Shown here one piece after another: positions 8,824-58,264 of a stretch of 64,000 nt of DNA. This DNA is from Deltaproteobacteria bacterium (GTDB lineage Bacteria > Desulfobacterota > Desulfuromonadia > Desulfuromonadales > BM103). The notes beneath the pieces are model-generated. The model was not told the DNA's origin. It saw nothing but the letters and a program-made list of their open reading frames with translations, and made no database searches. The stretch's first letter is position 1; each line of letters begins with the position of its first letter. The translations under genes were made by a program, and so were the position numbers. The stretch spans positions 1 to 64,000 of the forward strand of contig JAJRRB010000032.1 in assembly GCA_024279915.1 (NCBI GenBank). The letters are read 5' to 3'.

Positions 8824-8881
8824 CCAGAATTGTGGGTAACACTAAAGAGGTGTTGGTCACCCTGAGTCCGTTTATCAAACG

Positions 8882-9004: not shown

Positions 9005-9097
9005 CCAAATAGGTCGTTAAATGTGGACTTATGTGGACGTAAGAAATTTACGCGATCATTTAAGGGCTAACCAACTGCTGAAAAAGAGGTGAAAATA

Positions 9098-9760: not shown

Positions 9761-9829
9761 GGCGGTACTACATATAGTGACTTTTTTGGCCAACACGTTG
9801 ATCGGCCTCGCCGTCATACAGGTAAGAAT

Positions 9830-10276
9830 ATGATGAAAACTTTAGTCATGAACTATATGTTGTTTGTAAGGACGATAAAGAGATTGTCGGTAGTTAGTCT
9901 CTTTGTCGCTCTGATGGCAGGGGTCACGTTTGCAGGTGTCGAGTCGGTTGCAGCTCCTTCGCCGGACCTGTTGGCTCTTCAAGGCCGCTGGATCCGCACT
10001 GACGCCCCTTACGTGATCGAACTCCGTCACGCACAGGATGGTTCATTGCAGGCGGCTTACTTCAATCCGAAACCGATCAACGTCGGCAAAACGGAAACAG
10101 CGGAGCAGGTTGGGCTGGTTCAGATCTTAATTGAATTGCAAGATGCCAATTACCCAGGCTCAACCTATGTTCTTTCATATGATCGTTCGCAAGATCTGTT
10201 GGAAGGCATCTACTTTCATCCCGTCAGCAAGCAGAGTTATGAAGTGACTTTCGTGCGCCAGTTGGTTAGTCAGTGA
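9830..10276 (+). CDS. Small secreted protein of unknown function
   Basis: 148 residues. A long N-terminal signal (about 38 residues, basic region with FVRTIKR, then a hydrophobic core, cleavage near VESVAAP) leads into a compact 105-residue domain: LLALQGRWIRTDAPYVIEL, then alternating beta strands and SYDRSQDLLEGIYFHP. The pattern (small antiparallel sheet with a central WxR and a repeated Gly-Ile-Tyr strand) looks like a lipocalin-like or bacterial beta-sandwich fold, but I do not recognise a named family. It follows the DUF3313 gene by 69 bases on the same strand and may be co-transcribed. Confidence 0.6.
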   Translation: MMKTLVMNYMLFVRTIKRLSVVSLFVALMAGVTFAGVESVAAPSPDLLALQGRWIRTDAPYVIELRHAQDGSLQAAYFNPKPINVGKTETAEQVGLVQILIELQDANYPGSTYVLSYDRSQDLLEGIYFHPVSKQSYEVTFVRQLVSQ

Positions 10277-25294: not shown

Positions 25295-26069
25295 GTTGGT
25301 AATGGGCGTGAGCTTGCTCAAAAATTAGGACACTCTTGGGTTCCTGGGCCGCAATTGGAATATTGCTGAAAGTGGCGCTGTGTGCTTGTAATGGGAGACC
25401 GAAGAGAGTTATGGGGCTGTTTTTGGGGTCCAAAATGAGCCTATAGCATCTAAAAACGCACTTTTATGGGATGTTTATCTTGTAAAAACGGGATGCTAGC
25501 TTGGTCCGACCCCGATAAAATTGGAGGTGAAATGCTGGTCGAGGGTTAACGCCAATGTCCGGTTGAGGGCCTGAGAGAACGGTGAGGCGATAACTCTGAT
25601 TGGGCCAGGCAAGGGTCGATCATTTGGGTCAAAGGTTTGTGCGGATGTGCGTGGCCGAAAGGAGAACAGGATCAGATCTACGGTGTGGTCAGTATGCGGG
25701 TTGATGTTAACTCGGTATTGGCTTTGCCGATGGTGATGTATTATATTGTGTGCCAGTATTAATTTGTGACTGAAGGCAGTGGCACCGGAGATGCGGGACG
25801 AGTGTCGTCAGATCTTTGCGACAGCCTATAGGCGGCCCCGGGGAATTAAGAGCCTCAACCTGTGCGAGGTATGGGTTTAAGGTGATCGTCCCTCAGGCGT
25901 CACCAGACCTAGCCTGACAGCAATGTTGAACCAGACCCAATGCTCCTGTTAGGTATCTGTAATGCCCTCCATAGGGCGTCATGAGGAGTAACTCTGGCTG
26001 GGCAGGTAAGGGCCAGACTTGGGGCAGAGTGCTGTTGGGCAGACGCTTTTAAAGGGAGAGGGAGAACTC
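25295..26069. other. 775-base gene-free region between tRNA-Gly and STAND ATPase gene
   Basis: No frame here looks like protein. Seen: an inverted repeat TAGCATC (25444-25450) / GATGCTA (25492-25498), flanked on the inside by a repeated TAAAAACG; and two degenerate copies of a roughly 45-base segment (about 25588-25640 and 25984-26035) that share AACTCTG-x-x-TGGGC, AGG-x-AAGGG and TTGGG-x-CA-GAG. The base composition is more G-rich on the plus strand than the neighbours. It may be decayed mobile or structured-RNA sequence; no integrase and no tRNA-end direct repeat was found. Confidence 0.45.
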
Positions 26070-37499: not shown

Positions 37500-38066
37500 C
37501 TAGGAGATTGATTCAAAGAGGCTTTTGTAAAAAGTGTATGTTTCCATTCCAAGTGGATTCCCTTGTGATGCCAGAGAATCGATTCTCAGGAATTCGAGTA
37601 GCAGGGGGAATCTCGGGTCTGTCATATATTTACGTTGGTTCTTGCTGAGATTACTGGCTTTTTTTAACTGCCAGGAATGGTGAAAAATGTGATGGCGAAT
37701 GGTCCAGATGATTCTATCACGACGATCGGCTGGCAGATCAAGATTGTTGAGAATGATGTCAGCCATCTCTGCACCAAGCTTGGCATGGCCATAGGCGGTG
37801 ATTCGTCCGTTCTCATTTTGACTCGTCGTTTCCGGTTTTCCTATGTCGTGTAGCAGGGCAACCCACAGCAGGTCGGGGTCGCAATCAGAAGGGCAGGTCT
37901 CGATCGCCAGACGGGTGTGGATGGCGACATCGCCTTCGGCGTGAAATTCCTGTGGTTGCGGGGTCTCTGCCAGTGGAACCAGCTCAGGGATCGCCTCACA
38001 GAGACGATCCCACCATCCGGTTTTTCGTTCTCTTAGCTCCTCTTCGAGGCGGTCAAGCAAAGTCAT
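37500..38066 (-). CDS. HD-domain hydrolase related to the C-terminal domain of CCA-adding enzymes
   Basis: 188 residues, no signal. The HD metal site is complete: His50, His73-Asp74 (ALLHDIGKPET), Asp163 (LRIDSLAS), with additional His94 (AYGHAKLGAE) and His125-His126 (IRHHIFHH). The sequence around HDIGKPETTS...GRITAYGHAKLGAEMA strongly resembles the HD half of bacterial CCA-tRNA nucleotidyltransferases, which acts as a 2',3'-cyclic phosphodiesterase/phosphatase. No nucleotidyltransferase head is fused. It starts two bases after the CBS-HEPN gene ends, so both come from one message. Confidence 0.85.
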   Translation of the reverse strand: MTLLDRLEEELRERKTGWWDRLCEAIPELVPLAETPQPQEFHAEGDVAIHTRLAIETCPSDCDPDLLWVALLHDIGKPETTSQNENGRITAYGHAKLGAEMADIILNNLDLPADRRDRIIWTIRHHIFHHSWQLKKASNLSKNQRKYMTDPRFPLLLEFLRIDSLASQGNPLGMETYTFYKSLFESIS

Positions 38067-38068
38067 CT

Positions 38069-38878
38069 CTATTTCTTCTCTTGGCCGGTGCCTAAAGAGA
38101 CTACAGACTTCTCCAAGTTACTCTCCCAGCGGCTGCAGGCGATGACGATACGCTGCCAGCCGTCTGGGATGATCTCCTGGGTGTGGGCCAGATTATTTCG
38201 CAAGCTCTCAAATTCTTTGACCGCCTTGCGAGTCTCCTGACGTGACTTGTGACCTAAGGATTCCCGGATTTCTGCGTCGTAAGTGATGATCCAGCCCTTG
38301 TCTCCAAATTGCAGGCAGTCGATCAGTTCAACCTGCTGACCGCGTCGGTTCCTCTCCTCTTGAAGCTTTTTCGCCAGGATAAGGCGCTTCTCTGAGAGAA
38401 AGTCCTGCCATGAATTGTCAGCATAACGTTGCCGTAAAATCTCCGTCATGGTCATTTCGATCATAGTAATCATGCCAAAGAGGAACATGCGCATCGGGGG
38501 TTTTTCCAGATCGGTCAGGGTGATGATGGCGCCGACCCGATCCAGGATAGTGACAAAACATTGCTGGTTAATGGCCAGTGATTTGACCACATCAATGAGG
38601 TTGGCAGTGTCAGGGACCAGGTCGTCATCGGGCGTGAAAGGATGGAAATGATCGCCACAGGTCCCTGAGGTCAAATCCTCACGGCGTACATAACCTTCGA
38701 TCAGGCCATCTTGACGGACGCCGACAAGATTGAAGCCCTTGTCTTGCATAAACTGTTGAACGTCTGCTGCCTTGGCATAATCGTCAAAAGAAACCAGGGG
38801 CTCAGCAACATCCATGGCCGAGAAACCTTCGAGAAAAAGGCGACGCAGACGTGAACTTTGAGTATCTCTCCAGGGCAT
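38069..38878 (-). CDS. CBS-domain protein with C-terminal HEPN-like motif
   Basis: 269 residues, cytoplasmic. The N-terminal 130 residues form a pair of CBS domains (AADVQQFMQDKGFNLVGV, then VKSLAINQQCFVTILDRVGAIITLTDLEKPP), which normally bind adenine nucleotides. The remaining 135 residues are helical and contain FESLRNNLAHTQEI with Arg227 and His232: RX4H with the Asn after Arg, the pattern that marks HEPN nucleases and their relatives. An ATP- or AMP-sensing switch on a potential RNase is a reasonable model but is inference. It is the second gene of a compact minus-strand operon (TetR, this, HD). Confidence 0.78.
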   Translation of the reverse strand: MPWRDTQSSRLRRLFLEGFSAMDVAEPLVSFDDYAKAADVQQFMQDKGFNLVGVRQDGLIEGYVRREDLTSGTCGDHFHPFTPDDDLVPDTANLIDVVKSLAINQQCFVTILDRVGAIITLTDLEKPPMRMFLFGMITMIEMTMTEILRQRYADNSWQDFLSEKRLILAKKLQEERNRRGQQVELIDCLQFGDKGWIITYDAEIRESLGHKSRQETRKAVKEFESLRNNLAHTQEIIPDGWQRIVIACSRWESNLEKSVVSLGTGQEKK

Positions 38879-38899: not shown

Positions 38900-39460
38900 T
38901 TATAGGGCAGGGGTGCACACCAATTTGACGAATTCGTCAATAACTTGTTGTCTCTCAGGGCTATCCTTCGGTTCACATGATGCGGCAAAGATCCTGTCGC
39001 CGTGGTTGAAACTATGCATAAGCCTGGAGCGTAGTTCGGCTTGCATCTGGGAGAAGCCTTCGTCGAGGAAAAGACTTTTCATAAAATCAATTCGCCGTCG
39101 TATGACTCGGCCAATAACTTGTTTTGCATGGTTGTCATGAGTAGACCAGGCGACTAAAGCGAGTTCCAGATCTTCATCAACATGGGCGTTCACCAAGGCT
39201 AACAATCGGCTTAACTTCTCTGGTAAGGGACCTTCAATAACGCTCACTGCTCCGATGATCTCGTCAGTCAGAACTGTTTCCCAGTGGTTAAGCATACCCT
39301 GTAATAACGCTTCACGATTCAGGAAGTAACCATAGAAACCGCCCTTCGTAACACCGAGCTCACGAGCTAGGGCTTCGATTTTTACAGCGTCTATACCTTT
39401 GCAGCGTAACATCTCCAGCCCGCACTGAATCCAGTCCTCTCTCGTGTTAATCACTTTCAT
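38900..39460 (-). CDS. TetR-family transcriptional regulator
   Basis: 186 residues. The TetR helix-turn-helix is near the N-terminus: TREDWIQCGLEMLRCKGIDAVKIEALARELGVTKGGFYGYF (split in reading), with KGGFYGYFLNREALL typical of recognition helix and start of the third helix. The C-terminal ligand domain is all-alpha, with ELALVAWSTHD near the middle. It is separated by 21 bases from the CBS gene. A palindrome CATACG-N4-CGTATG lies in its own upstream region, probably its operator, shared with the divergent DUF2798 gene. Confidence 0.88.
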   Translation of the reverse strand: MKVINTREDWIQCGLEMLRCKGIDAVKIEALARELGVTKGGFYGYFLNREALLQGMLNHWETVLTDEIIGAVSVIEGPLPEKLSRLLALVNAHVDEDLELALVAWSTHDNHAKQVIGRVIRRRIDFMKSLFLDEGFSQMQAELRSRLMHSFNHGDRIFAASCEPKDSPERQQVIDEFVKLVCTPAL

Positions 39461-41801: not shown

Positions 41802-43046
41802 ATGACTGTTACTCGTTGCTCAGTAATGTCCGTCGCATTTTTGATCGTACTTTCCTTTTCCGCTTCTGCCTTGGAAGTGCCTTCTTTCCAAAAATTGCCC
41901 ATCACCCTTTCTGCCACCAAAACGTTACCTGAAGATTTACAAAAAGGCTCCAACTACCAGGTTGATGATGCGATCATCAATGATGGTCTCATCAATACCT
42001 ATTACCTGCAGACTGACTACGGCAAGTTGAAGATCGTCAGTGATGCGCTCTACATTGAACGCATTAACGAACTTCGCGCGCTGGAGCATATGGAAAAGCT
42101 GGAGCAAACAAAAGAGTTTGGGGAGGCAATGAAAAAGGGGGTAAAGGCGCCGATCAATACGGTCAAAAGTATGGCAACAGAACCGGTCGACACGGTAAAA
42201 GCCATTGGCAGCGGCATCAGCAACTGGGTGTCTGACATCGGTAATGCAGTGGTCAGTGACGACCCCAATCAGGCCGGGGTGTTTTCGACAGCTATTGGTT
42301 ACGCTGCTGCCAAGCGCGCATTTGCTTACGAATATGGCATCAATCCATACACCGATTTTCAGCCGGTGCAGGATAAAATGGGTGAGATCGCCCGGGCCAA
42401 CGTGGTCGGCGGTCTGACTCCGAAAATAGCCTTTGGTTTGATCAAGAAACCCGTCGGCACCGTCCTAAAAGTTACTGCGATGGCTGACACTATGAAAAAA
42501 ATGGCTCGCGATATGTCCCCTGATGAACTGGAAGACATCAACGAAGAGAAACTTAAAGCGATGGGGGTTTCCGACTCACTGAGCAAAAGGTTCTTACGCA
42601 ACTATAACTACGATCCTCAGGAAAAAACTTTGCTGGTCGGGGCCTTGGACGGCATGAAAGGGGTCGCGCATCGGGATTTAGTCATCCTTTCGGCATCTCA
42701 TGCTCCAGACAAGTCTGTAGCTCGTTATCTTAGCGTTCAGGCCCAGATGATGTTGGGTTATCATCAGAATATATCGTCAGCCCAAACCATTCTAAGCATT
42801 AATGGCGGCTTGGCATTACAGAACACAAAAGGTGTAGTCGTCGGTATCTCTCCGTATGATTATGCTGCCTGGACCAGCACCTTGAACAATAAAGAGATGG
42901 TTGCAACTGAGGTACTGAAACGGATTCAAGGGGTTTCCGGTAAGGAGCTTTGGATTGCCGGCAGGATAGCTCATCCGGCTCGCATTGCTATCGAGAGTCG
43001 TGGATGGGTGGTGCATGAGCAGGTGAGGGAGAAGTTGATCAAGTAG
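41802..43046 (+). CDS. Secreted protein of unknown function
   Basis: 414 residues. A signal peptide (MTVTRCSVMSVAFLIVLSFSASA) is followed by a charged N-terminal segment, a helical stretch of about 80-120 residues (YIERINELRALEHMEKLEQTKEFGEAMKKG, read in parts), a Gly/Ala-rich middle and a C-terminal portion with HRDLVILSASHAPD and AWTSTLNNKEMVATEVLKRI. There are no membrane helices after the signal. I do not recognise the family. A strong AAAGGAG site lies before the ATG. It ends 68 bases before the aspartic-peptidase gene on the same strand, so it could be the first gene of that operon. Confidence 0.65.
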   Translation: MTVTRCSVMSVAFLIVLSFSASALEVPSFQKLPITLSATKTLPEDLQKGSNYQVDDAIINDGLINTYYLQTDYGKLKIVSDALYIERINELRALEHMEKLEQTKEFGEAMKKGVKAPINTVKSMATEPVDTVKAIGSGISNWVSDIGNAVVSDDPNQAGVFSTAIGYAAAKRAFAYEYGINPYTDFQPVQDKMGEIARANVVGGLTPKIAFGLIKKPVGTVLKVTAMADTMKKMARDMSPDELEDINEEKLKAMGVSDSLSKRFLRNYNYDPQEKTLLVGALDGMKGVAHRDLVILSASHAPDKSVARYLSVQAQMMLGYHQNISSAQTILSINGGLALQNTKGVVVGISPYDYAAWTSTLNNKEMVATEVLKRIQGVSGKELWIAGRIAHPARIAIESRGWVVHEQVREKLIK

Positions 43047-47251: not shown

Positions 47252-48676
47252 ATGGCTGAAGAGAAGAAGAATTCGGTTGAAGTATCAGAGGACGAGGTAA
47301 TGGCCCCAGCATCTGAGCCTGGCGGGGTTGATGAGGGCCGGCGTAATTTGCTTAAACTCGGCATTGCTGGTGCCGGCGTCGCCGCTGCTACGGCGGGTGG
47401 CGTGGTTATTGCCAAAAAGCTGGAAGGAATCCCGCACGATGAGACCTATATCCCTATCCGTGAAGATTATAAACCTTTTGATGGTCGCAGCCTTATGCAG
47501 GCATTTGCCAGCAGCAAGCAACTGATTGCTAAATATCCCGAAAGAGTCAAAGCCTGGGAAAGGGAAGTACGCAAGCGGGATTCCAAGTGGGATGTCGTAG
47601 GCGGCAACGCGGAGTTCCGCAAGGGCAAGATGTCCGATGTCCCAGGTTTTACTCAACTCGATTATGCTCTTTCCCACGGGGCCTGGCACACGCAATCGAA
47701 ATTTCATGGTCCTGCTTACGGTACCAACGTCGGCCTGTTCTCCTGGGCCCAATCTGATGTCGCAAAAAACAAGTGGAAATTCAAGAGCCGGTTGGAAGCT
47801 TCAGATACGATAAAAAGTGCAGCCAAACTCTATCATGCTGCACGTTGTGGCATCGCCCCACATGATCCTCGCTGGGACTATCACCCGCTCTACGATCCGG
47901 TCACCGAAAAGGAATATAGCTGGGAGAAGGATTTCCCTTTCAAGCCGAAGTCAGTCATCGTTCTGCTCTCTGAAATGGATTATGTTGCCATGGCCGCAGC
48001 ACCGACCGTCCTCGCTGATGCGACCAGTGGACAGGGCTATACGGATATGGCGAATCAGGCCGGAAGTATGGCCAAATTTTTGCGCGGACTTGGCTATCAG
48101 GCGGTTGCTGCCGGCAATGATCTCGGTATCAGTACGGCCTATGCGGTTGCCGCCGGACTTGGTGAACTGGCACGCGCCGGGTGGGTCATTGCACCTGAGC
48201 TCGGTCCACGGATTCGCATCAGCAAGGTTTACACTGATTTCGATTTTGTCGAATACGACAATCCCCGCGAATACGGTGTGACCTCCTTCTGTGAAAACTG
48301 CAAACGCTGTGCGGTCGCCTGTCCCGCAAAGGCGATCACCCTTGATGACAAGCGCACCTTTGAACCGGTCTACGAGGGTGCCGAGGACCCTGATTATACC
48401 TGGAACAACAACATCGGAGTTTTCCAGTGGCACAGTGACAGCAAGAAGTGCTGGCAGTACTGGTGTGAAAGCGGCAGTAGCTGTGCCGCCTGTATCGCCG
48501 CCTGCCCCTACAACAAACCGGACTTCTGGCATCATCGCTTCATCGATGCCCAGAACGTAATCGCCCCTGGATGGGTTCACTCTGCCATGCGCGAGTTCGA
48601 CATTCTCTTCGGCTACGGTGACATCAACAACCCACAAAAGATCAAGGACTTCTACAAATCAGGGAGGAAGCTATGA
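47252..48676 (+). CDS. rdhA: Reductive dehalogenase catalytic subunit (RdhA), first copy
   Basis: 474 residues. An N-terminal Tat signal (EGRRNLLKLG, twin Arg at 30-31, then an Ala/Gly-rich hydrophobic stretch) sends the folded enzyme out. The central half should bind a corrinoid cofactor (region with SVIVLLSEMDYVAMAAAPT). Two ferredoxin-type clusters follow: C347-x2-C-x2-C-x3-CP (CENCKRCAVACP), and Cys400/411/414/418 ending CAACIAACPYNKPDFW. This layout is specific to RdhA; electrons pass through the clusters to cobalamin to replace halogen by hydrogen. Ribosome-binding site AGGAG. The stop overlaps the rdhB start. Substrate cannot be read from sequence. Confidence 0.9.
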   Translation: MAEEKKNSVEVSEDEVMAPASEPGGVDEGRRNLLKLGIAGAGVAAATAGGVVIAKKLEGIPHDETYIPIREDYKPFDGRSLMQAFASSKQLIAKYPERVKAWEREVRKRDSKWDVVGGNAEFRKGKMSDVPGFTQLDYALSHGAWHTQSKFHGPAYGTNVGLFSWAQSDVAKNKWKFKSRLEASDTIKSAAKLYHAARCGIAPHDPRWDYHPLYDPVTEKEYSWEKDFPFKPKSVIVLLSEMDYVAMAAAPTVLADATSGQGYTDMANQAGSMAKFLRGLGYQAVAAGNDLGISTAYAVAAGLGELARAGWVIAPELGPRIRISKVYTDFDFVEYDNPREYGVTSFCENCKRCAVACPAKAITLDDKRTFEPVYEGAEDPDYTWNNNIGVFQWHSDSKKCWQYWCESGSSCAACIAACPYNKPDFWHHRFIDAQNVIAPGWVHSAMREFDILFGYGDINNPQKIKDFYKSGRKL

Positions 48677-48966
48677 TGGATCTGACCTGGTACTTGTTGG
48701 GTGTTTTGACCGGAATCTCAGCGCTGATGCTGCGTTATCTGGCAGCACGCATGCAGCTGACATTGGTCACCTGGGGTGGTCTTCTCGCAGGTATTGGTGC
48801 TCTCCTGTTCTGCATTGCCTGGGCTGTGGGGGCCTACCTCGAAGGCGTTCCGCGTGCGGCCGCGATGGGTCTATTGATGTTTGTTCTGGGCGGGATCGTT
48901 ATTCTCACGGTTACTGCTCGCCTCATTGCCAAGCAAAATAGGGATCAACAGGGAGGTGCGTCATGA
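48673..48966 (+). CDS. rdhB: RdhB-like membrane anchor
   Basis: 97 residues, three hydrophobic helices (about 2-18, 30-55, 63-85) with the phrase GALLFCIAWAVGAYLEGVPRA between them, and a short basic tail. Small three-helix proteins encoded right after rdhA are the usual RdhB anchors that hold the catalytic subunit on the outer face of the inner membrane. The start ATG overlaps the rdhA stop codon (ATGATG), and the end overlaps the next gene by four bases. Its sequence is repeated as the first domain of the following gene. Confidence 0.85.
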   Translation: MMDLTWYLLGVLTGISALMLRYLAARMQLTLVTWGGLLAGIGALLFCIAWAVGAYLEGVPRAAAMGLLMFVLGGIVILTVTARLIAKQNRDQQGGAS

Positions 48967-50495
48967 TGAGCCTGACCTGGTATCTTCTTGGCTTGCTGAC
49001 GGTCGCTTCAGGAGAAGGGCTGCGGCAAGTGAATTTACGCTATAAACTTGATTGGATCGCCTGGGGTGGTCTCTTCTCCGGTATCGGTGCCCTCCTGTTC
49101 TGTATCGCTTGGGCTGTCGGTGCCTATCTCGAAGGTGTGCCAAGGGCTGCGGCCATGGGCTTGTTGATGTTTGGCTTAGGCGGCATTGTGATACTGGCGG
49201 TCGTCTCGAAGTATATTAATGCTCGACTGGAAAAAAGAGTTGTCATCGCGGCCGGAACACCTGCAATCGGTCCTGCGGCAGTCAAGAGCACAACCGTCGT
49301 CTCCGGTCCTCTCAAAACCTCTGTAGCAATCTCTCCTTTTGAAAAACAAATCTGGTCGGTACTTGGGCGTCTCGCTTACCTGAGTCTGGTCATTGCCTTC
49401 TTCCTCGGTTTGATGAGTGATGGCAAAGACTACGAGACCATGCTCCACCTGAAGTTTCCTGAAGCGAAATTGACCAAGCTTCGGGACAATCCAACAGTCT
49501 TCCGGATCGGTGCAGAAGAGAGCGGCAATTACGCTTTGATTCAGGAAGGGCAGGGCTATGGCGGGCCCTTCGTGATCGGTCTTCGCATCATGGAAGACGC
49601 CAAAATCCATGAAGTCGTGCTGTTCGACAACAAGGAGACTCCTGCTTTTCTCGACAAAATCGAAAAGGCGAATTTCCCGGCTCAGTTTGCTGGCAAGCAC
49701 GTAACGGATGACTTCCTGGTCGGTGCGGATGTCGATGTCATCAGCGGTGCCACGGTCTCGACTCGTGCTGCCACGATGGCGGTGCGCAACGGTGCCCATA
49801 TTGCCGCCACCGAATATTTCAAATTGAAACCGACCTGGAAGCCAGTGCCCTGGAATTTTGGCCTTGGCGAAATTCTGATCATATTGATGTTTGTTTTGGC
49901 GTTCGTCCCGAAGATCCACAAATCGACCCCCTGGAAACATCTCTACATGGTCGCATCGTTGGTGATCGTTGGTTTCTACATGAACGCCTCTATTTCTGTC
50001 AGTAGCCTCTCCGGGCTAGCTCTTGGCTTCATTCCGCCACTGAAAGAGCATATCGTCTGGTGGACCCTGGTGATGGGCAGTGTGTTATCTGTTGTACTGC
50101 TTGGCAAGAACGTCTACTGCTATCGCATCTGTCCTTTCTTCTGGGTTGAATGGCTGCTGAACAAGATTGGCGGCAGTGGAGTTAAGCTTTCTCCTGAGTT
50201 GCAGCTACGGTCGCGCTACGTAGCTAATGCCTGTCTCTGGGTGGCCTTGATGCTTGTTTTCCTCTCAACCTACCCTGGACTGGGCAATTATGAACCTTTC
50301 GCCATGATGTTCTCATTGGATGGAGTCGGGGTGCAATGGTACCTCCTGCCGTTGGCGTTGGTTGGTTCTTTTTTCCTGTCGAGTTTCTGGTGTCGCTTTT
50401 TCTGTCCGGTTGGCTACAGTTTTAACCATCTGTTGAGCTGGCGGCGCAGGATCTTGGATAAATTTAAAACAAAAGAAGAATCGATGGAGGTTTGA
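48963..50495 (+). CDS. Fusion of a RdhB-like anchor and a RdhC/NosR-type flavoprotein
   Basis: 510 residues. The first 90 residues duplicate the preceding RdhB (the IGALLFCIAWAVGAYLEGVPRA stretch is identical and the rest similar). Then come a helix near 132-150, a periplasmic FMN-binding domain (about 160-280) with DVDVISGATVST, the threonine-FMN attachment motif used by ApbE transferase, and four to five helices with two CX3CP motifs, CYRICPFF and CRFFCPVGYSFN, as in NosR and RdhC. It should take electrons from the quinol pool and deliver them to RdhA. The separate RdhC in other bacteria lacks the N-terminal RdhB part, so this fusion is unusual. Confidence 0.82.
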   Translation: MMSLTWYLLGLLTVASGEGLRQVNLRYKLDWIAWGGLFSGIGALLFCIAWAVGAYLEGVPRAAAMGLLMFGLGGIVILAVVSKYINARLEKRVVIAAGTPAIGPAAVKSTTVVSGPLKTSVAISPFEKQIWSVLGRLAYLSLVIAFFLGLMSDGKDYETMLHLKFPEAKLTKLRDNPTVFRIGAEESGNYALIQEGQGYGGPFVIGLRIMEDAKIHEVVLFDNKETPAFLDKIEKANFPAQFAGKHVTDDFLVGADVDVISGATVSTRAATMAVRNGAHIAATEYFKLKPTWKPVPWNFGLGEILIILMFVLAFVPKIHKSTPWKHLYMVASLVIVGFYMNASISVSSLSGLALGFIPPLKEHIVWWTLVMGSVLSVVLLGKNVYCYRICPFFWVEWLLNKIGGSGVKLSPELQLRSRYVANACLWVALMLVFLSTYPGLGNYEPFAMMFSLDGVGVQWYLLPLALVGSFFLSSFWCRFFCPVGYSFNHLLSWRRRILDKFKTKEESMEV

Positions 50496-50497
50496 TT

Positions 50498-50650
50498 ATG
50501 GAAAAGCAGGAAAAACAATCAGTGGCGCAACCGTCTCCAATAGAAACGCATGCATGGGGTCAGATGCTGGCCAACAGCCTCTGGGTAGTGACCTTGCTGA
50601 TGGTGCTGGCTTTTTTCTGGCAATCTTTCGGCGAAATGTTAGCGAAGTAG
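50498..50650 (+). CDS. 50-residue single-span membrane peptide in the rdh operon
   Basis: Too short for most gene callers. ATG 50498 follows GGAGGTTTG at ideal spacing and two bases after the previous stop. The 50 residues are a polar first half (MEKQEKQSVAQPSPIETHAW) and one hydrophobic helix (about 25-42, NSLWVVTLLMVLAFFW). Position between rdhBC and the second rdhA suggests an accessory subunit, perhaps an anchor for RdhA2 or a stabiliser of the flavoprotein; no family recognised. Confidence 0.65.
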   Translation: MEKQEKQSVAQPSPIETHAWGQMLANSLWVVTLLMVLAFFWQSFGEMLAK

Positions 50651-50674
50651 TAATTGCATATAAGATGAGGATTC

Positions 50675-52114
50675 ATGAGTCAGGAATTTGACGACAATCA
50701 TACTCCGAATAACGACACCACAGAAAGTGTATCTGAGCCAGTAGAGCACGTTGATAAAGGTAAACGGACTTTTCTCAAGCTCGGCGTAGCTGGCGCCGGA
50801 GTTGCTGCTGCGACAGCAGGCGGTGCGTTCATCGCCCACAAACTGGAAGGCACACCGATGGATGACATTGTGCCACCGGACGGGATTGCCAAAGACTTTA
50901 AACCGATGGATCAGAGAAATCTGATCTTGACGTTTGCCGGAAGTGAAGCTTTGAATAAAAAACATCCCGAGAGAAAAGAACTCTTTAACAAGGTCCTGAA
51001 AAAAGAGAACCCTGACCATCCAGAATTTGATTTCAGAAAAGATTACAAGGCTATGCGTACCCGTCCCATTCGTGATGAACCGGGCTATACGCAGCTGGAC
51101 AAGGCGTTGCAAATGTCCACAATGTCCACCTGGAAATATGTTTCTCATAATGAAGGTAATGGTCAACCTGGCGATGGCATATTGAATTGGGATCAGTCCA
51201 GCGTTGCCAAACAGAAGTACAAGTTTGACAGTAAAAATGAGGCCACTCTGGCCATCAAAAGCGCTGCTCGCATCTATGGCGCACAAGCTTGCGGGATTGC
51301 CAGATTTGACCGGCGCTTTGTTTATGAGCCGATGTATGATATGGCCAAAGAAGAGACTTTGAGTTGGGACAAGGATGTCCCGTTTGAACCCAAATCAGTC
51401 ATCGTCATGTTGTGGGAGATGGATTACCATTGTATAGCCACGGCGCCAGCCTGGACAGCCGATGCAACCGTTGCTGAGGCTTATACGCGGCAGGCTACAG
51501 GAGCCGCCCAGATGGCCCAGTTTCTCAAAGGCCTCGGTCACCATGCGATCGGTGCCGGAAACGACATGGCAAACAGCGTTGCCTATGGGGTGCTGGCTGG
51601 GTTGGGCGAAGGCGCCCGTAACGGCCACCTGATTGCCCCGGAAGTCGGTTGCCGGGTGCGCATCAGCAAAGTTTTTACAGATTTTGATTTTTTCGATTAC
51701 GCCCAGCCACGTGATTTTGGGGTCAAGAGTTTCTGCGAGCACTGCAAACGGTGTGCTACCTCATGCCCATCCAAAGCGATCAGCTTCGATGATAAGCCGA
51801 GTCTTTATCCCACTTATTCGGACAATAAAGAAGACACCTGGAACAATCTCAGTGGACTTTACAAGTTCCATAGCGACGCCAAAAAATGTTTCATGTTCTG
51901 GACTCAGAATGGCAGCGGTTGTGCCGCCTGCATAGCCGCCTGCCCATACAATAAACCGGATTTCTGGCACCACCGTTTCATCGATGCACAGAATGTCATA
52001 GCCCCTGGCTGGGTGCACAGCATCATGCGTGAGATGGATATCGTCTTTGGCTACGGAAATGTCGCTGACCCGGAGAAAGTGAAGAAATTCTGGAAGAGAG
52101 GGAGTAAGGTGTGA
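50675..52114 (+). CDS. rdhA: Reductive dehalogenase catalytic subunit (RdhA), second copy
   Basis: 479 residues, clearly homologous to the first copy along its length. The cluster region is intact: C354 onward CEHCKRCATSCP, and a second set ending CAACIAACPYNKPDFW at 416. The Tat-type signal reads DKGKRTFLKLG, with Lys-Arg where twin Arg is expected. The corrinoid part carries SVIVMLWEMDYHCIATAPAW at the position of SVIVLLSEMDY in copy one. No rdhB follows directly; the 50-residue peptide or the fused anchor may serve it. Substrate may differ from copy one because the central regions vary most. Weak ribosome-binding site (AGATGAGG). Confidence 0.9.
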   Translation: MSQEFDDNHTPNNDTTESVSEPVEHVDKGKRTFLKLGVAGAGVAAATAGGAFIAHKLEGTPMDDIVPPDGIAKDFKPMDQRNLILTFAGSEALNKKHPERKELFNKVLKKENPDHPEFDFRKDYKAMRTRPIRDEPGYTQLDKALQMSTMSTWKYVSHNEGNGQPGDGILNWDQSSVAKQKYKFDSKNEATLAIKSAARIYGAQACGIARFDRRFVYEPMYDMAKEETLSWDKDVPFEPKSVIVMLWEMDYHCIATAPAWTADATVAEAYTRQATGAAQMAQFLKGLGHHAIGAGNDMANSVAYGVLAGLGEGARNGHLIAPEVGCRVRISKVFTDFDFFDYAQPRDFGVKSFCEHCKRCATSCPSKAISFDDKPSLYPTYSDNKEDTWNNLSGLYKFHSDAKKCFMFWTQNGSGCAACIAACPYNKPDFWHHRFIDAQNVIAPGWVHSIMREMDIVFGYGNVADPEKVKKFWKRGSKV

Positions 52115-52149: not shown

Positions 52150-52317
52150 GATGATTTTATCACTTGTTATGACTTGCGAATTTAGCTTTGTGTTGTATCC
52201 TATGTATCTATAACCTTTGAATTAATTTGAAGCTTTACCGAGGGCTGATAACCCCCATCATATGTTGTATAGAATCACGTCATTTATCGCCGTTGATTGA
52301 ATCTTCAGGAGAAACAC

Positions 52318-53904
52318 ATGCGTTTTTTTGTTGTATTGTTGTTGGGCGTTGCTCTGCTGACGCCCGGATGTATCAAAGTTGGTCCCGATTTCTCCACAGC
52401 GCCAGCACCTGTCTCCGATCAATGGCTTGATGCCGAAGAGAAACAGATCAGATCCGAACCTGGTGATCATGCAGAATGGTGGAAGACCTTCAACGATCCG
52501 ATTCTGGATCAGTTGGTCCAGATGGCCTATCAGCAGACCCTCTCGCTGCAGGTCGCAGGCTTACGAGTTCTTGAAGCTCGTGCCGAACTGGGTTTCGTGA
52601 CCGGTCATCTCTTTCCTCAGGTCCAGCAGGCAAGGGGGGACATTTCTACCGTCGGTGCCAGTAAGAATGAAGCGAATACTCTCGGTATAGACCCGAGCTG
52701 GAAGACTGGCGGCCTTGGTTTCGATACCGCCTGGGAGATGGACTTCTGGGGCAAATTCCGACGTGGAGTTGAATCGGCCGACGCTTCCCTGATCGCCTCC
52801 ATCGCAGATTATGATGATGTTCTGGTGGCCCTGACCGCTGAAGTCGCTCGTGCTTATACTTTGATCCGCACTTTCGAGGAACGAATCCTGATTGCCGAGC
52901 AGAACATCAAGATCCAACAGCGTTCTCTGGAAATTACTGAAGCTCGCTTTGAGGCCGGTCTGGTTACGGAACTCGATACACAGCAGGCCAGAGCCTTGCT
53001 GAACAGTACCAAGGCATTGATTCCTGGCTTCAAAGCAGGTTTGCGGCAGGCCCAGAATGCTCTGAGTGTTCTGCTCGGAACCCCTCCCGGAGATTTACAT
53101 CAAATCATTGTTGCCAACGGATCGATTCCGGCAGCCCCGGTTGAAGTTGCAGTAGGTATTCCGGCAGAGTTGTTGCGTCGCCGGCCAGACATTCGCCGTG
53201 CTGAAATGCAGGCAGCTGCCCAGAGCGCTTTAATCGGGGTTTCCAGGGCAGACCTTTTCCCGCATTTTTCGCTGGTCGGCTCAATTGGTCTACGTTCCAG
53301 TAATAACTCTCCAACCCGAGCTGGTGGCGCAGGAGGTAGCAGTTTTGGTGACCTCTTCGACAGTGACAGCTTTGAATATTTCGTTGGGCCAAGCTTTCGT
53401 TGGGACATTTTGAACTACGGCCGCATCAAGAACCAGGTTCGTGTTCAGGACGCTCGTTTCCAGCAGCTGCAGGTCAATTACCAGGAGACTGTCCTGCGTG
53501 CTGCCAGGGAAGTGGAAGACGGCATGGTCGGCTTCCTGCGCAGCCAGGAAGAGGCCGGTTTCCTGACCAAGAGCGTCAACGCCTACAAACGTTCCGTTGA
53601 CCTTGCCCAGATCCAGTACCGTGAAGGTCTGATCGATTATCTGCGGGTACTTGACAATCAGCGCGCATTAACTGCTGAACAGGACCGGTTGATAGCGACG
53701 CAAGGTGATGTTGCTTTGAGCCTGATTGGCATGTATAAGGCGCTGGGCGGTGGTTGGCAGATCCGTTCTGGACAGAATCTCGTGCCTGAAGAGATGCAGC
53801 AGGAAATGGCCGAACGCACCGATTGGGGTGATCTGCTGAATCTTGAGGAGCAAGTACCGCAAACGACAGAAGAACGCTCTGACTGGCGTTGGCCGGATTG
53901 GTAG
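52318..53904 (+). CDS. Outer-membrane efflux lipoprotein (NodT/TolC family)
   Basis: 528 residues from ATG 52318, preceded by CAGGAG; seven in-frame codons upstream lack a site. The lipoprotein signal is MRFFVVLLLGVALLTPGC (Cys18). The long helices of two OEP repeats, the phrase GIPAELLRRRPDIRRAEMQ and the closing KALGGGWQIR are present. The C-terminal 45 residues after ALGGGWQ (VPEEMQQEMAERTDWGDLL, acidic, Trp-rich) extend beyond the family norm. It opens the second efflux operon. Confidence 0.93.
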   Translation: MRFFVVLLLGVALLTPGCIKVGPDFSTAPAPVSDQWLDAEEKQIRSEPGDHAEWWKTFNDPILDQLVQMAYQQTLSLQVAGLRVLEARAELGFVTGHLFPQVQQARGDISTVGASKNEANTLGIDPSWKTGGLGFDTAWEMDFWGKFRRGVESADASLIASIADYDDVLVALTAEVARAYTLIRTFEERILIAEQNIKIQQRSLEITEARFEAGLVTELDTQQARALLNSTKALIPGFKAGLRQAQNALSVLLGTPPGDLHQIIVANGSIPAAPVEVAVGIPAELLRRRPDIRRAEMQAAAQSALIGVSRADLFPHFSLVGSIGLRSSNNSPTRAGGAGGSSFGDLFDSDSFEYFVGPSFRWDILNYGRIKNQVRVQDARFQQLQVNYQETVLRAAREVEDGMVGFLRSQEEAGFLTKSVNAYKRSVDLAQIQYREGLIDYLRVLDNQRALTAEQDRLIATQGDVALSLIGMYKALGGGWQIRSGQNLVPEEMQQEMAERTDWGDLLNLEEQVPQTTEERSDWRWPDW

Positions 53905-54006
53905 AAAAGACAATTTTGAATTTGTAGTTTTGAATTTTGAATTATATAGATAACAACTGAACTAATTGCCCGTTACTGGTCAACAGTAACAAACGACAGG
54001 TGAAAC
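53905..54006. repeat. AT-rich repeat TTTTGAATTT between efflux genes
   Basis: The sequence TTTTGAATTTGTAGTTTTGAATTTTGAATT (about 53914-53944) has three TTTTGAATT units, the same kind of intergenic low-complexity run as near 1794-1821. No gene or hairpin is present in the rest of the gap. Confidence 0.5.
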
Positions 54007-55116
54007 ATGAAAATCCAACGTATCTATTTAGTCCCGTTGCTTATTGCAGCTCTTTTGCTGCCTGCTTGCAAAGAGGAAGTCGAGAAGAAGGAAGTAATTC
54101 GTCCGGTGAGGTCAGTACGGGTGGCTGGAGAGTTGCAGATGTTAGCCGGTCGTTCCTTCCCCGGCAAGGCGACTGCCACGCAACAGACCAATCTGGCATT
54201 TCGGGTCGCCGGCCCTCTTACTGAATTTCCGGCCCAGGTCGGTGACGAAGTCAAGAAGGGTGACGTCCTGGCCAGAATCGACCCGCGAGACTTTCAGGTT
54301 GAACTGCGCAATGTCCAAGGGCAGCTGAAAAGGACCCAGGCGTCATTGGAGCTGGCAACCAGTGATTATGATCGAGTTAAACGCGTTGCGGCAAAAGACC
54401 CAGGCGCCATCAGTCAGGCTATGATCGATAACAAGAAGGGTGCCCTTGACAGTGCTAAGGCCCAGGTACAGTCGCTACAGGCAACCGTAGCTACCGCTAG
54501 AGATAATCTGAACTATACCTACCTCAGGGCGTCTTATGATGGAACTGTGGTCGAGACGTTTGTGGAAAACTTCGAAGATGTGCAGGCTAAACAATCGATC
54601 ATCCGCCTGGTTGATACCCGTAAGATGGAATTTACTATCAATATACCGGAAAGCCTGATCTCCCGGGTTGCTGATGTCGAAACCGTGCTGGTTCGTTTCG
54701 ATGTCTTCCCCGACCATGATATCCCGGCAACTATCAAGGAAGTTGGTAGAGAGGCCTCGAAGACCACCCGAACCTATCCGGTCACGTTGATCATGGACCA
54801 GCCTGAAGGACTGCGGATCCTGCCCGGTATGGCCGGAAAGGCCTGGGCAGACAAGGTCTCCGCAGAACTGACCAAAGATACGACCGGAGGGCCAACTGTG
54901 CCGGTTGCTGCCACTTTCACCGAGAACGGAAAATCCTATGTCTGGGTCATCAATGAGGATTCCATGACGGTGACACGACAGGAGGTCACATTGGGTCGCG
55001 TTACCAATGATGGGGTTACGACACTCGGCGGTCTCAAGGGCGGAGAGCTGATTGTCTCAGCTGGCGCTCATTCCGTGGTCGAAGGACAGCAAGTTCGTAT
55101 TTTAGAGAAACAATAA
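54007..55116 (+). CDS. RND efflux periplasmic adaptor lipoprotein
   Basis: 369 residues. The lipoprotein signal MKIQRIYLVPLLIAALLLPAC ends in Cys21. The two lipoyl halves surround the coiled-coil hairpin (about 95-165): GDEVKKGDVLARIDPRDFQVEL before it and YLRASYDGTVVETFVENFEDV after it. The beta-barrel domain and membrane-proximal domain follow, including TENGKSYVWVINEDSMTVTRQ. It connects the permease encoded 31 bases downstream to the channel upstream. The adaptor is unlike the one at 1832 in length and sequence, so the two pumps are not recent duplicates. Confidence 0.92.
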   Translation: MKIQRIYLVPLLIAALLLPACKEEVEKKEVIRPVRSVRVAGELQMLAGRSFPGKATATQQTNLAFRVAGPLTEFPAQVGDEVKKGDVLARIDPRDFQVELRNVQGQLKRTQASLELATSDYDRVKRVAAKDPGAISQAMIDNKKGALDSAKAQVQSLQATVATARDNLNYTYLRASYDGTVVETFVENFEDVQAKQSIIRLVDTRKMEFTINIPESLISRVADVETVLVRFDVFPDHDIPATIKEVGREASKTTRTYPVTLIMDQPEGLRILPGMAGKAWADKVSAELTKDTTGGPTVPVAATFTENGKSYVWVINEDSMTVTRQEVTLGRVTNDGVTTLGGLKGGELIVSAGAHSVVEGQQVRILEKQ

Positions 55117-55147
55117 ATTGGATAGACAATAAACGGGAGAGTTCCGC

Positions 55148-58100
55148 GTGAACCTTGCAAAAATAGCCATTGAAAAAAAGGTTGTAACTTACTTTGTGTC
55201 CTTCATGATGTTGCTTGCCGGGGTCGGCAGTTATTTCTCCCTTGGACAGTTGGAGGACCCGGAATTTTCAATCAAGTCTGCCCTCATCGTAACAACTTAT
55301 CCAGGAGCCAGTGCCGAAGAGGTAGAGCTTGAGATAACCGATCGTATTGAGATCGCCCTGCAAGAGCTCACAGCGGGAGATTATGTCGAATCCTTTTCTT
55401 CTCCCGGACTGTCCGAAATTAAGGTCGAGTTCAAGCCGGAATACTGGTCCGACCGTCTTCCCCAGGTTTTTGATGAGCTGCGCCGCAAGATTCGCGACAT
55501 TGAAGCAGACTTGCCGCCTGGTGCCGGACGGCCCGTGATCAATGACGATTTCGGTGATGTCTACGGCATGGTGCTGGCCCTGACTGGTGACGGCTATACC
55601 TACCAGGAGATGGAAGAGGCGGCCAAAAGTTTGAAAAAGGAGTTGAGCCTGGTCAAAGGTGTGGCCCGAGTCGAACTCTGGGGCGTACAGCCCAAGGTCA
55701 TCTACCTTGATTCTTCGGAGACCCAGCTATCCCAACTCGGCCTGACCGATTCCAGCATCATCTCTACCTTGAAAAATCAGAATATGGTGGTCGATGGCGG
55801 TGGCTTGAACATCCAGAACAAACGCACACGGTTCGCTCCGTCCGGAGAATTTCAGTCTCCCGAAGACATCGCCGATCTGGCTATCCGCGCCTCTCTGGCT
55901 GATGAACTTTCCAACCTGGCGTCTGCCAGTTCAGGCGACAGCCTATATCGTACAACCGACGACCTGATCCGCATCCGTGATATCGGTACGGTTAGCCGTG
56001 GCTATCTCGACCCAGCCAAGACTTTGATGCGCTATAACGGCGAACGGGCTCTCGGGATTTCTCTCGCCAACGTCTCCGGAGCCAACGTCGTTGAGGTCGG
56101 CACAGCTATCGATACACGTCTTGATGAATTGATTGAAAATCTGCCTGTTGGCTTGGAGTTGCATCGGGTTCACTGGATGTCAGATATCGTCGATACGTCT
56201 GTCAAGGGGTTCTTTGTCCGCTTGGCCCAGGCAATTGCTATCGTTCTCATTGTCTTGTCTGTGTCCATGGGTTGGCGTATGGGCCTGATTATAGGTACCG
56301 ACCTGATCTTTACGATTCTCGGCACTCTGGTTTTTCTGGCTGTTCTGGGTATTGACCTGCAGCGGATGTCACTGGGTGCACTGGTTATCGCTCTGGGTAT
56401 GATGGTCGACAATTCGATTGTAGTTGCAGATGGTTTTGTTGTTCGTCTTCAGAAAGGAATGGACCGCAAACAGGCTGCTGTCGAAGCAGCCAGCCAACCT
56501 GCTACTCCGTTGCTCGGCGCGACAGTGATTGCCGTAATGGCCTTCTATCCAATCTATGCTTCGACCGAGAGTGCCGGTGAATATTGCCGGACCCTCTTTA
56601 CCGTTGTGGGCATCTCTCTGATGTTCAGTTGGGTGATCTCACAGACCCTGACGCCGCTCAAGTGTATGGATCTGCTTCCTGACCCCAAACAGGATGATGA
56701 AGGCAGCGACCCCTATGACACCAAGATGTTCCGCGCCTTCCGCAGTGTTCTTGATAAAGCGATCCGTATGCGGGTTCTGTTCATGGGCTGCATGCTTGGT
56801 CTGCTGGTTCTGGCTGGCGGGGGTTTTGGCTTTGTTGATCAGCTCTTCTTCCCCGACTCGTCGATGACCAAAATCATGATTGATTACTGGGGAGACCAGG
56901 GAACCCGCATCGAATTTGTTTCAGAGGATATTAAGCAGATTGAGGAGAGGTTGCTTGCGGATGAACGGGTCGAAGCTGTCTCAACTTTTGTCGGTGCTGG
57001 TCCACCTCGTTTCTATCTTCCGGTCGACCCGGAAGGGGCTAACACGGCCTATGGGCAGTTGATTGTCAATACCACTGATGCCAAGTCGATTGATGCTCTG
57101 ATTGCTGATATCAAGCCATGGCTGGATGAAAGCTTCCCGAATGCCCTGATCCCGATTCGTAAGTACGGAGTCGGCCCTAGTAATACCTGGAAATTTGAGG
57201 TTCGTATCAGTGGTCCTGCCATTGCAGATCCTCAAGTATTGCGTGGCCTGGCCGAAGAAGGTTTGGAGATTCTGCGCAACGAGCCGGTTGCGGGCGAGAT
57301 GCAGACTGATTGGCGTCAGCCAGTCCCCAAGCTGGTGCCGCTCTATAATCAGGAGCGCGCTCGTTGGGCTGCGATCACCCGTGAGGATGTGGCGAACACC
57401 ACGAAACGTGCTTTTGACGGTCGAAGTGTAGGGCTCTACCGGGAGAATGATGACCTGATCCCGATTGTCCTGCGCTTGTCTGAAGAGGACCGGGAAAATG
57501 TCAACAAGCTGGAGTCGCTACAGGTTCAGGGTGCCATGAGCACTGAAACGATCCCCATCGCTCAGGTGGTCGACGGTATTGAAACAGTGTGGGAGGACTA
57601 TTTTATCGGCCGGCGTGATCGTCGTCGGACCATTACCCTCCAGGCTAACCCTATCCTCGGACAGACCAATCCGACCCTGGTTGCCGCCGTTCAAGACCAG
57701 ATCGAAGCGATCGAACTGCCCCCGGGGTACACCATGGAGTGGGGTGGCGAGAAAGAAGACTCGGCCAAATCACAGCAATCGCTCATCCCTGGAATGATCC
57801 CGGCCTTTGCGGTTGTGCTTCTTCTCATTGTGGCACTATTTAATGCCATAAAACCACCGCTGATTATCCTCTGCACCATCCCTTTTGCCTTCATCGGCAT
57901 TACCGCTGGTCTGCTCGTGTTTAACACGCCTTTTGGTTTTCTGGCTCTGCTTGGGGCCATGAGTCTGGCCGGGATGATGACCAAGAATGTTATTGTCCTG
58001 CTCGATGAGGTCAATATCCAACTGGAAGAGGGGAAATCGCAATACGATGCGATTATCGGCGCGGCTATGTCACGCCTGCGTCCCGTGGTGTTGGCGGCGG

Positions 58101-58264
58101 CGACAACCGTGCTTGGTGTTGTCCCGTTGCTGCAGGATGTTTTCTGGGTCGGATTGGCGGTCACAGTTATGACTGGCTTGACCTTTGGAACTATCCTGAC
58201 CATGTTGGTGGTGCCGGTACTTTATTGTATGTTCTTCAAAATACCGTCACCAAAAGTAGAATAA
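55148..58264 (+). CDS. RND efflux permease (hydrophobe/amphiphile exporter subtype)
   Basis: 1038 residues, GTG start behind ACGGGAG. N-terminus NLAKIAIEKKVVTYFVSFMM, large loops after TM1 and TM7 as usual. In TM4 the motif is GMMVDNSIVVADGF with Asp421 followed by Asn422 instead of two Asp as in AcrB; this D-N form is normal for a separate RND subgroup and leaves one charged relay residue. A second landmark, TTVLGVVPLLQDVFWVGLAVTVMTG, is in TM11. The operon order (channel, adaptor, permease) is the reverse of the first pump. The termination hairpin lies 67 bases downstream. Confidence 0.93.
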   Translation: MNLAKIAIEKKVVTYFVSFMMLLAGVGSYFSLGQLEDPEFSIKSALIVTTYPGASAEEVELEITDRIEIALQELTAGDYVESFSSPGLSEIKVEFKPEYWSDRLPQVFDELRRKIRDIEADLPPGAGRPVINDDFGDVYGMVLALTGDGYTYQEMEEAAKSLKKELSLVKGVARVELWGVQPKVIYLDSSETQLSQLGLTDSSIISTLKNQNMVVDGGGLNIQNKRTRFAPSGEFQSPEDIADLAIRASLADELSNLASASSGDSLYRTTDDLIRIRDIGTVSRGYLDPAKTLMRYNGERALGISLANVSGANVVEVGTAIDTRLDELIENLPVGLELHRVHWMSDIVDTSVKGFFVRLAQAIAIVLIVLSVSMGWRMGLIIGTDLIFTILGTLVFLAVLGIDLQRMSLGALVIALGMMVDNSIVVADGFVVRLQKGMDRKQAAVEAASQPATPLLGATVIAVMAFYPIYASTESAGEYCRTLFTVVGISLMFSWVISQTLTPLKCMDLLPDPKQDDEGSDPYDTKMFRAFRSVLDKAIRMRVLFMGCMLGLLVLAGGGFGFVDQLFFPDSSMTKIMIDYWGDQGTRIEFVSEDIKQIEERLLADERVEAVSTFVGAGPPRFYLPVDPEGANTAYGQLIVNTTDAKSIDALIADIKPWLDESFPNALIPIRKYGVGPSNTWKFEVRISGPAIADPQVLRGLAEEGLEILRNEPVAGEMQTDWRQPVPKLVPLYNQERARWAAITREDVANTTKRAFDGRSVGLYRENDDLIPIVLRLSEEDRENVNKLESLQVQGAMSTETIPIAQVVDGIETVWEDYFIGRRDRRRTITLQANPILGQTNPTLVAAVQDQIEAIELPPGYTMEWGGEKEDSAKSQQSLIPGMIPAFAVVLLLIVALFNAIKPPLIILCTIPFAFIGITAGLLVFNTPFGFLALLGAMSLAGMMTKNVIVLLDEVNIQLEEGKSQYDAIIGAAMSRLRPVVLAAATTVLGVVPLLQDVFWVGLAVTVMTGLTFGTILTMLVVPVLYCMFFKIPSPKVE

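Follow-up and report, generated by a model that had tools for sequence, protein, structure and literature searches.

The closest described relatives of the locus considered here, a five-gene reductive dehalogenase cluster within a 64,000-nucleotide stretch of a Deltaproteobacteria bacterium genome (assembly GCA_024279915.1, contig JAJRRB010000032.1, positions 1 to 64,000; herein referred to as the window), are the PceA2B2 menaquinol:organohalide oxidoreductase of Desulfitobacterium hafniense TCE1 (8q4h) and the flavoprotein encoded beside it in the pceABCT operon. In PceA2B2, as described in the available text of its report, helices 2 and 3 of the membrane anchor PceB (an RdhB) enclose the quinone together with two helices of the catalytic subunit PceA (an RdhA), the loop between helices 2 and 3 binds the PceA C-terminus, and helix 1 forms the contact between the two PceB copies (PMC10624902). 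The locus shares with this complex the RdhA fold and catalytic residues, the RdhB fold and the quinone-pocket Lys/His/Asp/Tyr; however, it encodes two RdhAs and two differing RdhBs, one of them fused to RdhC, its EXE motif reads EGV, and the Arg499 position is occupied by Asp. With PceC, the RdhC of the pceABCT operon, it has in common the flavin mononucleotide (FMN) motif and two CX3CP motifs without C-terminal 4Fe-4S motifs, whereas the RdhC of the window bears an N-terminal RdhB domain and is followed by a conserved small membrane peptide. A complex of RdhC with RdhA and RdhB is stated, in the excerpt of PMC8905343 at hand, to have no experimental evidence. Two further systems offer partial parallels: the pce island of Geobacter lovleyi (pceT-pceC-pceA1-pceB1-pceA2-pceB2) likewise places one RdhC beside two RdhAs, although there the pceAB blocks share 99.8% identity and no fusion is reported in the available part of the source (PMC3403914), and hybrid reductive dehalogenases with N-terminal RdhB-like helices likewise join such helices to another Rdh subunit, although there, according to the available text, the partner is an RdhA without a twin-arginine translocation (Tat) signal (PMC6797604) and not RdhC.

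We hypothesize that the cluster is a respiratory dehalogenase operon with two unlike anchors, one of them bearing the flavoprotein, that both dock the same RdhAs, a reading to which we give roughly even chances. As a variant of such an operon the locus is real and its anatomy solid; its asymmetric complex and electron route are hypotheses. The open reading frames (ORFs) on the plus strand at 47252-52114 sit in the order given by the initial annotation (rdhA, rdhB, an RdhB-RdhC fusion, a 50-residue membrane peptide, rdhA), as follows.

47252..48676, plus strand: rdhA1, catalytic subunit, 474 amino acids, with an RR Tat motif, two 4Fe-4S motifs and Y263/N289/R322 (TIGR02486, 185.0 bits; PDB 8q4h, E 3.7e-65)
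48673..48966, plus strand: free RdhB membrane anchor, 97 amino acids (71% identity to the fused RdhB domain; weak match to PceB 8q4h_C, E 0.51)
48790..48891, plus strand: matched segment of the free RdhB, residues 40-73, comprising most of helix 2, the E-G-V loop and the start of helix 3 (97% identity to the fused copy)
48963..50495, plus strand: RdhB-RdhC fusion, 510 amino acids (domain, NosR/NapH-model and fold matches; recurrence)
48963..49217, plus strand: RdhB domain of the fusion, residues 1-85 (predicted model on PceB 8q4h_C, Z 11.8, 1.7 Å, 85 residues)
49080..49181, plus strand: matched segment of the fused RdhB, residues 40-73 (pN 0.03 and pS 0.78 against the free copy)
49554..49793, plus strand: FMN-binding domain of the fusion, residues 198-277, containing the SGATVS motif with Thr264 (codon 49752-49754) (PF04205 FMN_bind, E 5.5e-10; RnfG fold)
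50118..50135, plus strand: first CX3CP motif, CYRICP, residue 386 (CX3CP in 4/4 fusions)
50391..50408, plus strand: second CX3CP motif, CRFFCP, residue 477 (CX3CP in 4/4 fusions)
50498..50650, plus strand: one-helix membrane peptide, 50 amino acids from ATG 50498 or 52 from TTG 50492 (recurrence behind rdhC; purifying selection in relatives)
50675..52114, plus strand: rdhA2, catalytic subunit, 479 amino acids, with a Tat motif that reads KR, not RR (TIGR02486, 181.2 bits; model on PceA 8q4h_A, E 2.5e-31)

Because the genes share a strand, overlap by 4 nucleotides at the rdhA1/rdhB and rdhB/fusion junctions and are separated by gaps of only 2 (fusion/peptide) and 24 nucleotides (peptide/rdhA2), their sequence suggests a single transcript. 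Counts of promoter-like sites (8 against 5.5 +/- 2.0 in shuffled sequence) and terminator-like sites (6 against 6.1 +/- 2.2) were uninformative.

The fused gene recurs in other genomes. Scanning named genomes with an RdhA alignment, for which two peptide patterns were used so that the set is not exhaustive, yielded 52 related loci, mostly from marine Gammaproteobacteria, Desulfobacterota and Bacteroidota, with 38 RdhC genes (a hand count in which split reading frames were counted once and some genes are cut by contig ends). Three of these 38 are fused to RdhB in an open frame, each with a free RdhB just upstream: L062 from Desulfobulbaceae CSMAG_2379 (order A-A-B-BC-s, where s is the small peptide), L063 from Pseudodesulfovibrio MC-06 (B-BC-s-A) and L064 from Deltaproteobacteria GLR311 (A-B-BC, then the contig end). 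The recovery in related genomes that had been proposed as a check on the fusion was therefore achieved, and a sequencing error is ruled out. In a phylogeny of 56 RdhA rows, the four fusion genomes contribute six RdhAs, all in one clade (support 99/97), within which the placement of RdhA1 of the window is weak (86/45) and the two RdhAs of L062 are not sisters; the RdhAs of the other fusion genomes are only ~50% identical to those of the window. The locus L112, too short for the tree and with a contig stretch that stops before any rdhB, carries an RdhA fragment that, in three of the regions compared, shares 82-85% identity with an L062 copy. The remaining marine loci (L065-L113; Shewanella, Photobacterium, Ferrimonas, Desulfobacterales, Bacteroidota), whose Proteobacteria/Desulfobacterales part adjoins the fusion clade in the RdhA tree, mostly follow the rdhA-rdhB-rdhC order (31 of 49, hand count) and, as in the window, carry a small peptide behind most rdhC genes with enough downstream sequence; unlike the window, they keep RdhB and RdhC separate in all 35 of their RdhC genes (hand count).

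Both the operon and the fusion are sparsely distributed. Counting the window's own genome each time, relatives of the RdhAs were found in 3 of 136 genomes from the order (E limit 1e-20), 3 of 277 from the class (E limit 1e-30) and, in a sample of the phylum, 27 of 395 (E limit 1e-30); a phylum sample of 390 genomes held the fusion in 2. The fusion protein was matched in 29 of 40 genomes (its own and relatives), in all except its own through the FMN domain alone. A scan of the genome collection with the fusion as sole query turned up no relative, and no printed RdhB-RdhC fusion or rdhC-linked small peptide was found in the open-licence PMC literature. Carriage by phage or plasmid was rejected: among viral contigs, 59 pattern matches included none related to the RdhAs, and the five plasmid records matching the fusion reach just 24-26% identity over 56-68% of it. 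Another kind of RdhB fusion occurs 3' of rdhA in L055 (7881-9320, genome G079), where a 479-residue protein combines an RdhB-like N-terminus and hydrophobic stretches without a match to the RdhC profile.

The predicted structure and motifs of the fusion agree with its proposed composition. In an AlphaFold2 model built from a 40-row alignment (mean predicted local distance difference test score 87.2, predicted template modelling score 0.79), residues 1-85 fit PceB over 85 of its 89 residues, where unrelated helical rows reach Z scores of 7.5 and less, and Foldseek matches the fusion to PceB with E 1.2 and probability 1.00. The three-helix PceB arrangement is assigned to the fused copy by this predicted model and to the free copy by its identity to the fused one (60 of 85 aligned residues, 71%); the identification as RdhB is made because fold, operon position and the conserved Glu loop are taken together. 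In both copies the EXE motif lacks its second Glu, for which a role in proton release has been proposed. Among 54 RdhB domains (L062-L113 and the window), the first Glu is present in 54 and the second in 16, being replaced in 38 (V 20, I 9, Y 8, M 1), and EXE is therefore not a sound membership criterion for this group. Further along the fusion, the FMN part of the model lies on RnfG chains (Z 12.5-14.1; e.g., 7zc6_G with Z 12.7, 3.5 Å, 132 residues), SGATVS at residues 261-266 conforms to the RdhC-defining motif [S/T]G[A/S]TX[S/T], and the two CX3CP motifs that complete that definition in the available text of PMC5928378 are present, with no cysteines past residue 481 and hence none of the C-terminal 4Fe-4S motifs that RdhC lacks. 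The C-terminal membrane part hits NosR and NapH models, far under their whole-protein cut-offs. The FMN threonine and both CX3CP motifs are retained in all four fusions. The RdhB domain fused to an RdhC flavoprotein is real, as first annotated. The joining stretch (residues 82-132) holds 7 K/R and 2 D/E and would therefore lie on the cytoplasmic side, where the last helix of RdhB meets the first of RdhC, so that a fusion of RdhB end to RdhC start would preserve both topologies; on the same charge and hydropathy grounds the FMN is predicted to be exocytoplasmic, and it is probably covalent. The genome encodes two ApbE flavin transferases, located elsewhere than the operon.

As the initial annotation had it, both RdhAs are, by sequence and model, predicted respiratory reductive dehalogenases; a kinship with the epoxyqueuosine reductase QueG is rejected. 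They pass the curated TIGR02486 cut-off (160.35 bits) and reach only 29.8 and 31.2 bits on the QueG model TIGR00276 (cut-off 200); the best PDB match of RdhA1 is Desulfitobacterium PceA, and an AlphaFold2 model of RdhA2 (34-row alignment, mean predicted local distance difference test score 83.5) is far closer to PceA than to the best QueG (E 2.7e-5). The catalytic Tyr/Asn/Arg, defined by Y246, N272 and R305 of S. multivorans PceA, and all eight cysteines of the two 4Fe-4S motifs are kept in every one of the 34 RdhAs aligned, among them the two of the window. The KR of RdhA2 is rarer, Lys taking the first Tat position in 3 of the 34. Both window RdhAs retain the quinone-pocket Lys/His/Asp/Tyr (equivalents of PceA K489, H495, D515 and Y520, placed via the RdhA1-PceA alignment). 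Across the 34 RdhAs, the pair at the K489/D515 equivalents is Lys/Asp in 16 and Glu/His in 18, never mixed; this exchange tracks the RdhA tree and is therefore possibly one event, and the Glu/His swap suggests different proton or quinone chemistry in that marine RdhA group. RdhA1 and RdhA2 are most alike at their C-termini (78% identity over residues 411-474, against 60% over 226-340 and 39% over 61-225), and they are the only two RDH-family matches in the genome at E 0.001 or better.

The free and fused RdhBs of each genome resemble one another chiefly in a single segment. Whole-domain identity between the two is 68% in the window, 62% in L062, 61% in L064 and 42% in L063, against 40-53% between genomes; over residues 40-73 (borders picked by eye after viewing the alignment) it is 97, 94, 74 and 88% within genomes against 62-65% between them, whereas residues 1-39 (mean 42% within, 35-36% between) and 74-88 (35% within, 34-47% between) show little of this effect. 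The identical run shared by the window copies, first given as over 20 residues, is 31 residues long. Topologies uniting all fused RdhBs in one clade (p 0.0036) or all free RdhBs of these genomes (p 0.010) were rejected by approximately unbiased tests, on an alignment of 88 columns and with the identities viewed before testing. In the window, the proportion of synonymous differences (pS) across the matched segment is 0.78, as high as between genomes (mean 0.75), with a proportion of nonsynonymous differences (pN) of 0.03; selection best explains this segment, and recent gene conversion in the window is not supported. The earlier proposal of an old duplication under strong protein-level selection thus holds for the constraint on the window pair and its many silent changes, whereas simple duplication misfits the data, in that the two copies resemble each other genome by genome, chiefly within the middle segment. 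Since the helix 2-3 face holds RdhA and the quinone in PceA2B2 and helix 1 is the contact between anchors, a heterodimer of the free anchor (B) and the fused anchor (BC) predicts the observed pattern of matching.

A small peptide is encoded behind rdhC in most of these loci. An ORF of 28-90 residues with one strong hydrophobic stretch, starting -25 to +100 nucleotides from the preceding stop codon, follows 30 of the 34 RdhC genes with enough downstream sequence and 15 of 471 control ORFs (other ORFs of at least 150 residues in the same loci; Fisher p 7e-33, related rows not being independent, as 36 RdhCs form 20 clusters at 70%). Among the four misses, the peptide can be recognised by eye in L082 (92 residues), L098 and L100 (earlier starts) and is absent from L110; in two of the 30 positives (behind the L088 RdhC and the second L091 RdhC, which score only 96 and 102 bits) the ORF is a differing-looking 76-residue protein, so that by eye 31 of the 34 seem homologous. 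With 22 members and 25% mean column identity, the peptide alignment is short and weak, and pN/pS of ~0.1 to 0.56 in nine relative pairs indicates purifying selection. Searches of the family against Pfam, NCBIfam and PDB gave nothing convincing, the best of the 22 members reaching E 0.0028 (Pfam) and 0.007 (NCBIfam), one member each. The gene also follows the fusion in L063 (7893-8030), and L064 ends inside its apparent start (3544-3630). Small membrane ORFs lie 3' of rdhC in G079 and, as in the window, in G261, where tandem rdhAs behind rdhC fit Geobacter lovleyi; none was found behind the RdhC-like gene of G059 (L058; 101 bits). A 'short additional locus' has been noted in D. hafniense DCB-2, where it lies between rdhC5 and rdhD5 and is said, in the available part of the source, to lack coding evidence (PMC9888536). 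Flavoproteins with low RdhC scores are also followed by differing small membrane proteins of 70-92 residues (L088 5509-5739, L091 13154-13384, L133 and L134, the last two found through similarity to the RdhC part alone), and small partners may hence be more widespread among the flavoproteins of this superfamily.

We propose that RdhA1 and RdhA2 would act as Tat-exported corrinoid/Fe-S catalytic subunits of organohalide respiration, acting on a presumed organohalide substrate, and that their similar C-terminal helices could dock on the helix 2-loop-helix 3 face of either RdhB. Electrons would pass from menaquinol at the RdhB face through two Fe-S clusters to the corrinoid. The fused anchor would continue into RdhC, with a covalent FMN in the periplasm, a NapH/NosR-like membrane part and the one-helix partner encoded next door. 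The likeliest assembly would be asymmetric, an RdhA-RdhB unit beside an RdhA-RdhBC unit with one RdhC per fused anchor, and RdhC might supply or tune electrons, or re-activate the corrinoid, at the RdhA surface. The pair of B and BC is seen in all four clade genomes where these genes are visible. A bolder form of this proposal, which we hold only tentatively and think rather unlikely as a whole, is an asymmetric quinol:organohalide oxidoreductase built on a B-BC heterodimer with matched quinol/RdhA faces and differing first helices, with one tethered flavoprotein and one one-helix subunit per dimer and differing RdhA heads fitting either side, the peptide family being a general, overlooked RdhC subunit in organohalide-respiring bacteria.

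Several observations weigh against the main proposal. The Z score of 11.8 for the PceB fit falls in the range (below ~13) where a match can reflect a common helical-bundle arrangement, the sequence-level match of the free RdhB to PceB is weak, and RdhB helix 1 lies below the hydropathy threshold and is seen in the predicted model alone. The FMN motif varies to SRAT in one fusion relative and AGAT in another, and CobT (PF02277), which bears on corrinoid supply, had no match in the 98%-complete assembly. The segment borders were drawn by eye, and the pairing test that ranks the observed matching first (0.88, next best 0.82) has only 24 arrangements. Matched-segment pS is lower elsewhere (L062 0.49, L063 0.48, L064 0.60; between-genome minimum 0.57), and old gene conversion in L062 and L063 is possible. 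RdhA C-termini are 62-81% identical throughout the fusion clade, a likeness not peculiar to the window pair, and two separate modules with alike RdhA tails could also leave the matching pattern. The L063 genome has a single RdhA match at an E limit of 1e-15 yet carries both B and BC; two RdhAs are therefore not required for the pair, which rules out a strict rule of two RdhAs to two RdhBs, and the initial annotation's single flavoprotein serving two catalytic subunits describes the one RdhC gene beside two RdhAs here and is not general. Finally, in the available text of PMC10624902, menaquinol sits at the interface of RdhA and RdhB in PceA2B2, and a redox path leads from it to the catalytic site although the complex contains no RdhC; the first suggestion, that the FMN domain passes quinol electrons to the RdhAs, is to be read as a hypothesis. 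PceC is moreover ~50-fold scarcer than PceA in the accessible part of PMC8905343.

Three alternatives can be set beside the main proposal. Two separate homomeric modules, one of RdhA1 and the free RdhB and one of RdhA2 and the fusion, that differ in substrate and electron receipt would suit a gene order that pairs A1-B and then BC-s-A2, and RdhAs that, beyond the signal region, diverge most at residues 61-225; we consider them fairly unlikely, as the nearly identical RdhB faces and alike RdhA C-termini leave little room for specificity in the sequence, both RdhBs persist in L063, whose genome has one RdhA match, and L062 is ordered A-A-B-BC. A doubtful but possible alternative is that the RdhC part serves maturation, corrinoid activation or regulation instead of steady electron supply, the fusion merely keeping it near RdhA: the scarcity of PceC (PMC8905343, in part), the separate quinol path of PceA2B2 (PMC10624902, in part) and the original proposal of RdhC as a regulator (available text of PMC5928378) point this way, whereas tying RdhC to an anchor is at odds with a C:A ratio of ~1:50 unless the free anchor dominates, and the FMN threonine and CX3CP motifs kept in 4/4 fusions count against it while being compatible with it. 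The fusion could, lastly, be near-neutral, arising from a duplication of RdhB within an A-B-C operon and the loss of the stop codon between the second copy and rdhC, with the segments matched by gene conversion. The plain A-B-C order of 31/49 marine loci and the reduced pS within L062 and L063 are what such a history would leave; we nonetheless regard it as improbable, given that pS in the window segment equals that between genomes at a pN of 0.03 and that fused and free copies persist in four genomes whose RdhAs are so divergent.

The genome shares its class with G261 and is hence probably one of the Desulfuromonadia. The operon is accessory, because the same-genus genome G001 has the flanks (37.5-38.9 kb and most of 52.3-64 kb) ~2.2 kb apart and lacks 38.9-52.3 kb with the operon at that place, and no RdhA match was found in the other searched genomes of the genus and family. 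A Pfam search of 45 window proteins, which do not cover every ORF, found no CRP/FNR, MarR, trigger-factor or corrinoid family, in keeping with the remark that no rdhK, marR, trigger-factor or corrinoid gene lies nearby; a TetR at 38900-39460 is the sole regulator seen. The adjacent resistance-nodulation-division (RND) pump is weak as a candidate operon member, same-genus and same-family relatives carrying it at 65-67%. Beside the L062 locus, at 256-1299, 2331-7140 and 8711-9958, are an ApbE gene, relatives of the window pump genes (52297-58264), namely an RND pump (59%) and an OEP (53%), and a 416-residue protein 26% related to the window protein at 41802-43046; L112 carries the 416-residue protein too. 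Elsewhere in the window are an HD-domain and Swt1-like HEPN gene pair (37500-38878, minus strand), also present in G001, and an 867-residue NB-ARC plus TPR protein (26019-28622).

The role of RdhC is disputed and the protein is scarce in model strains, so that a natural RdhB-RdhC fusion offers a direct route to testing RdhC function. Its occurrence in four genomes, together with a presumed docking face matched to that of the free anchor, is genetic evidence that RdhB and RdhC work in contact and provides a construct with which this can be tested, and the conserved peptide encoded after rdhC is a candidate for a subunit that has been missing.

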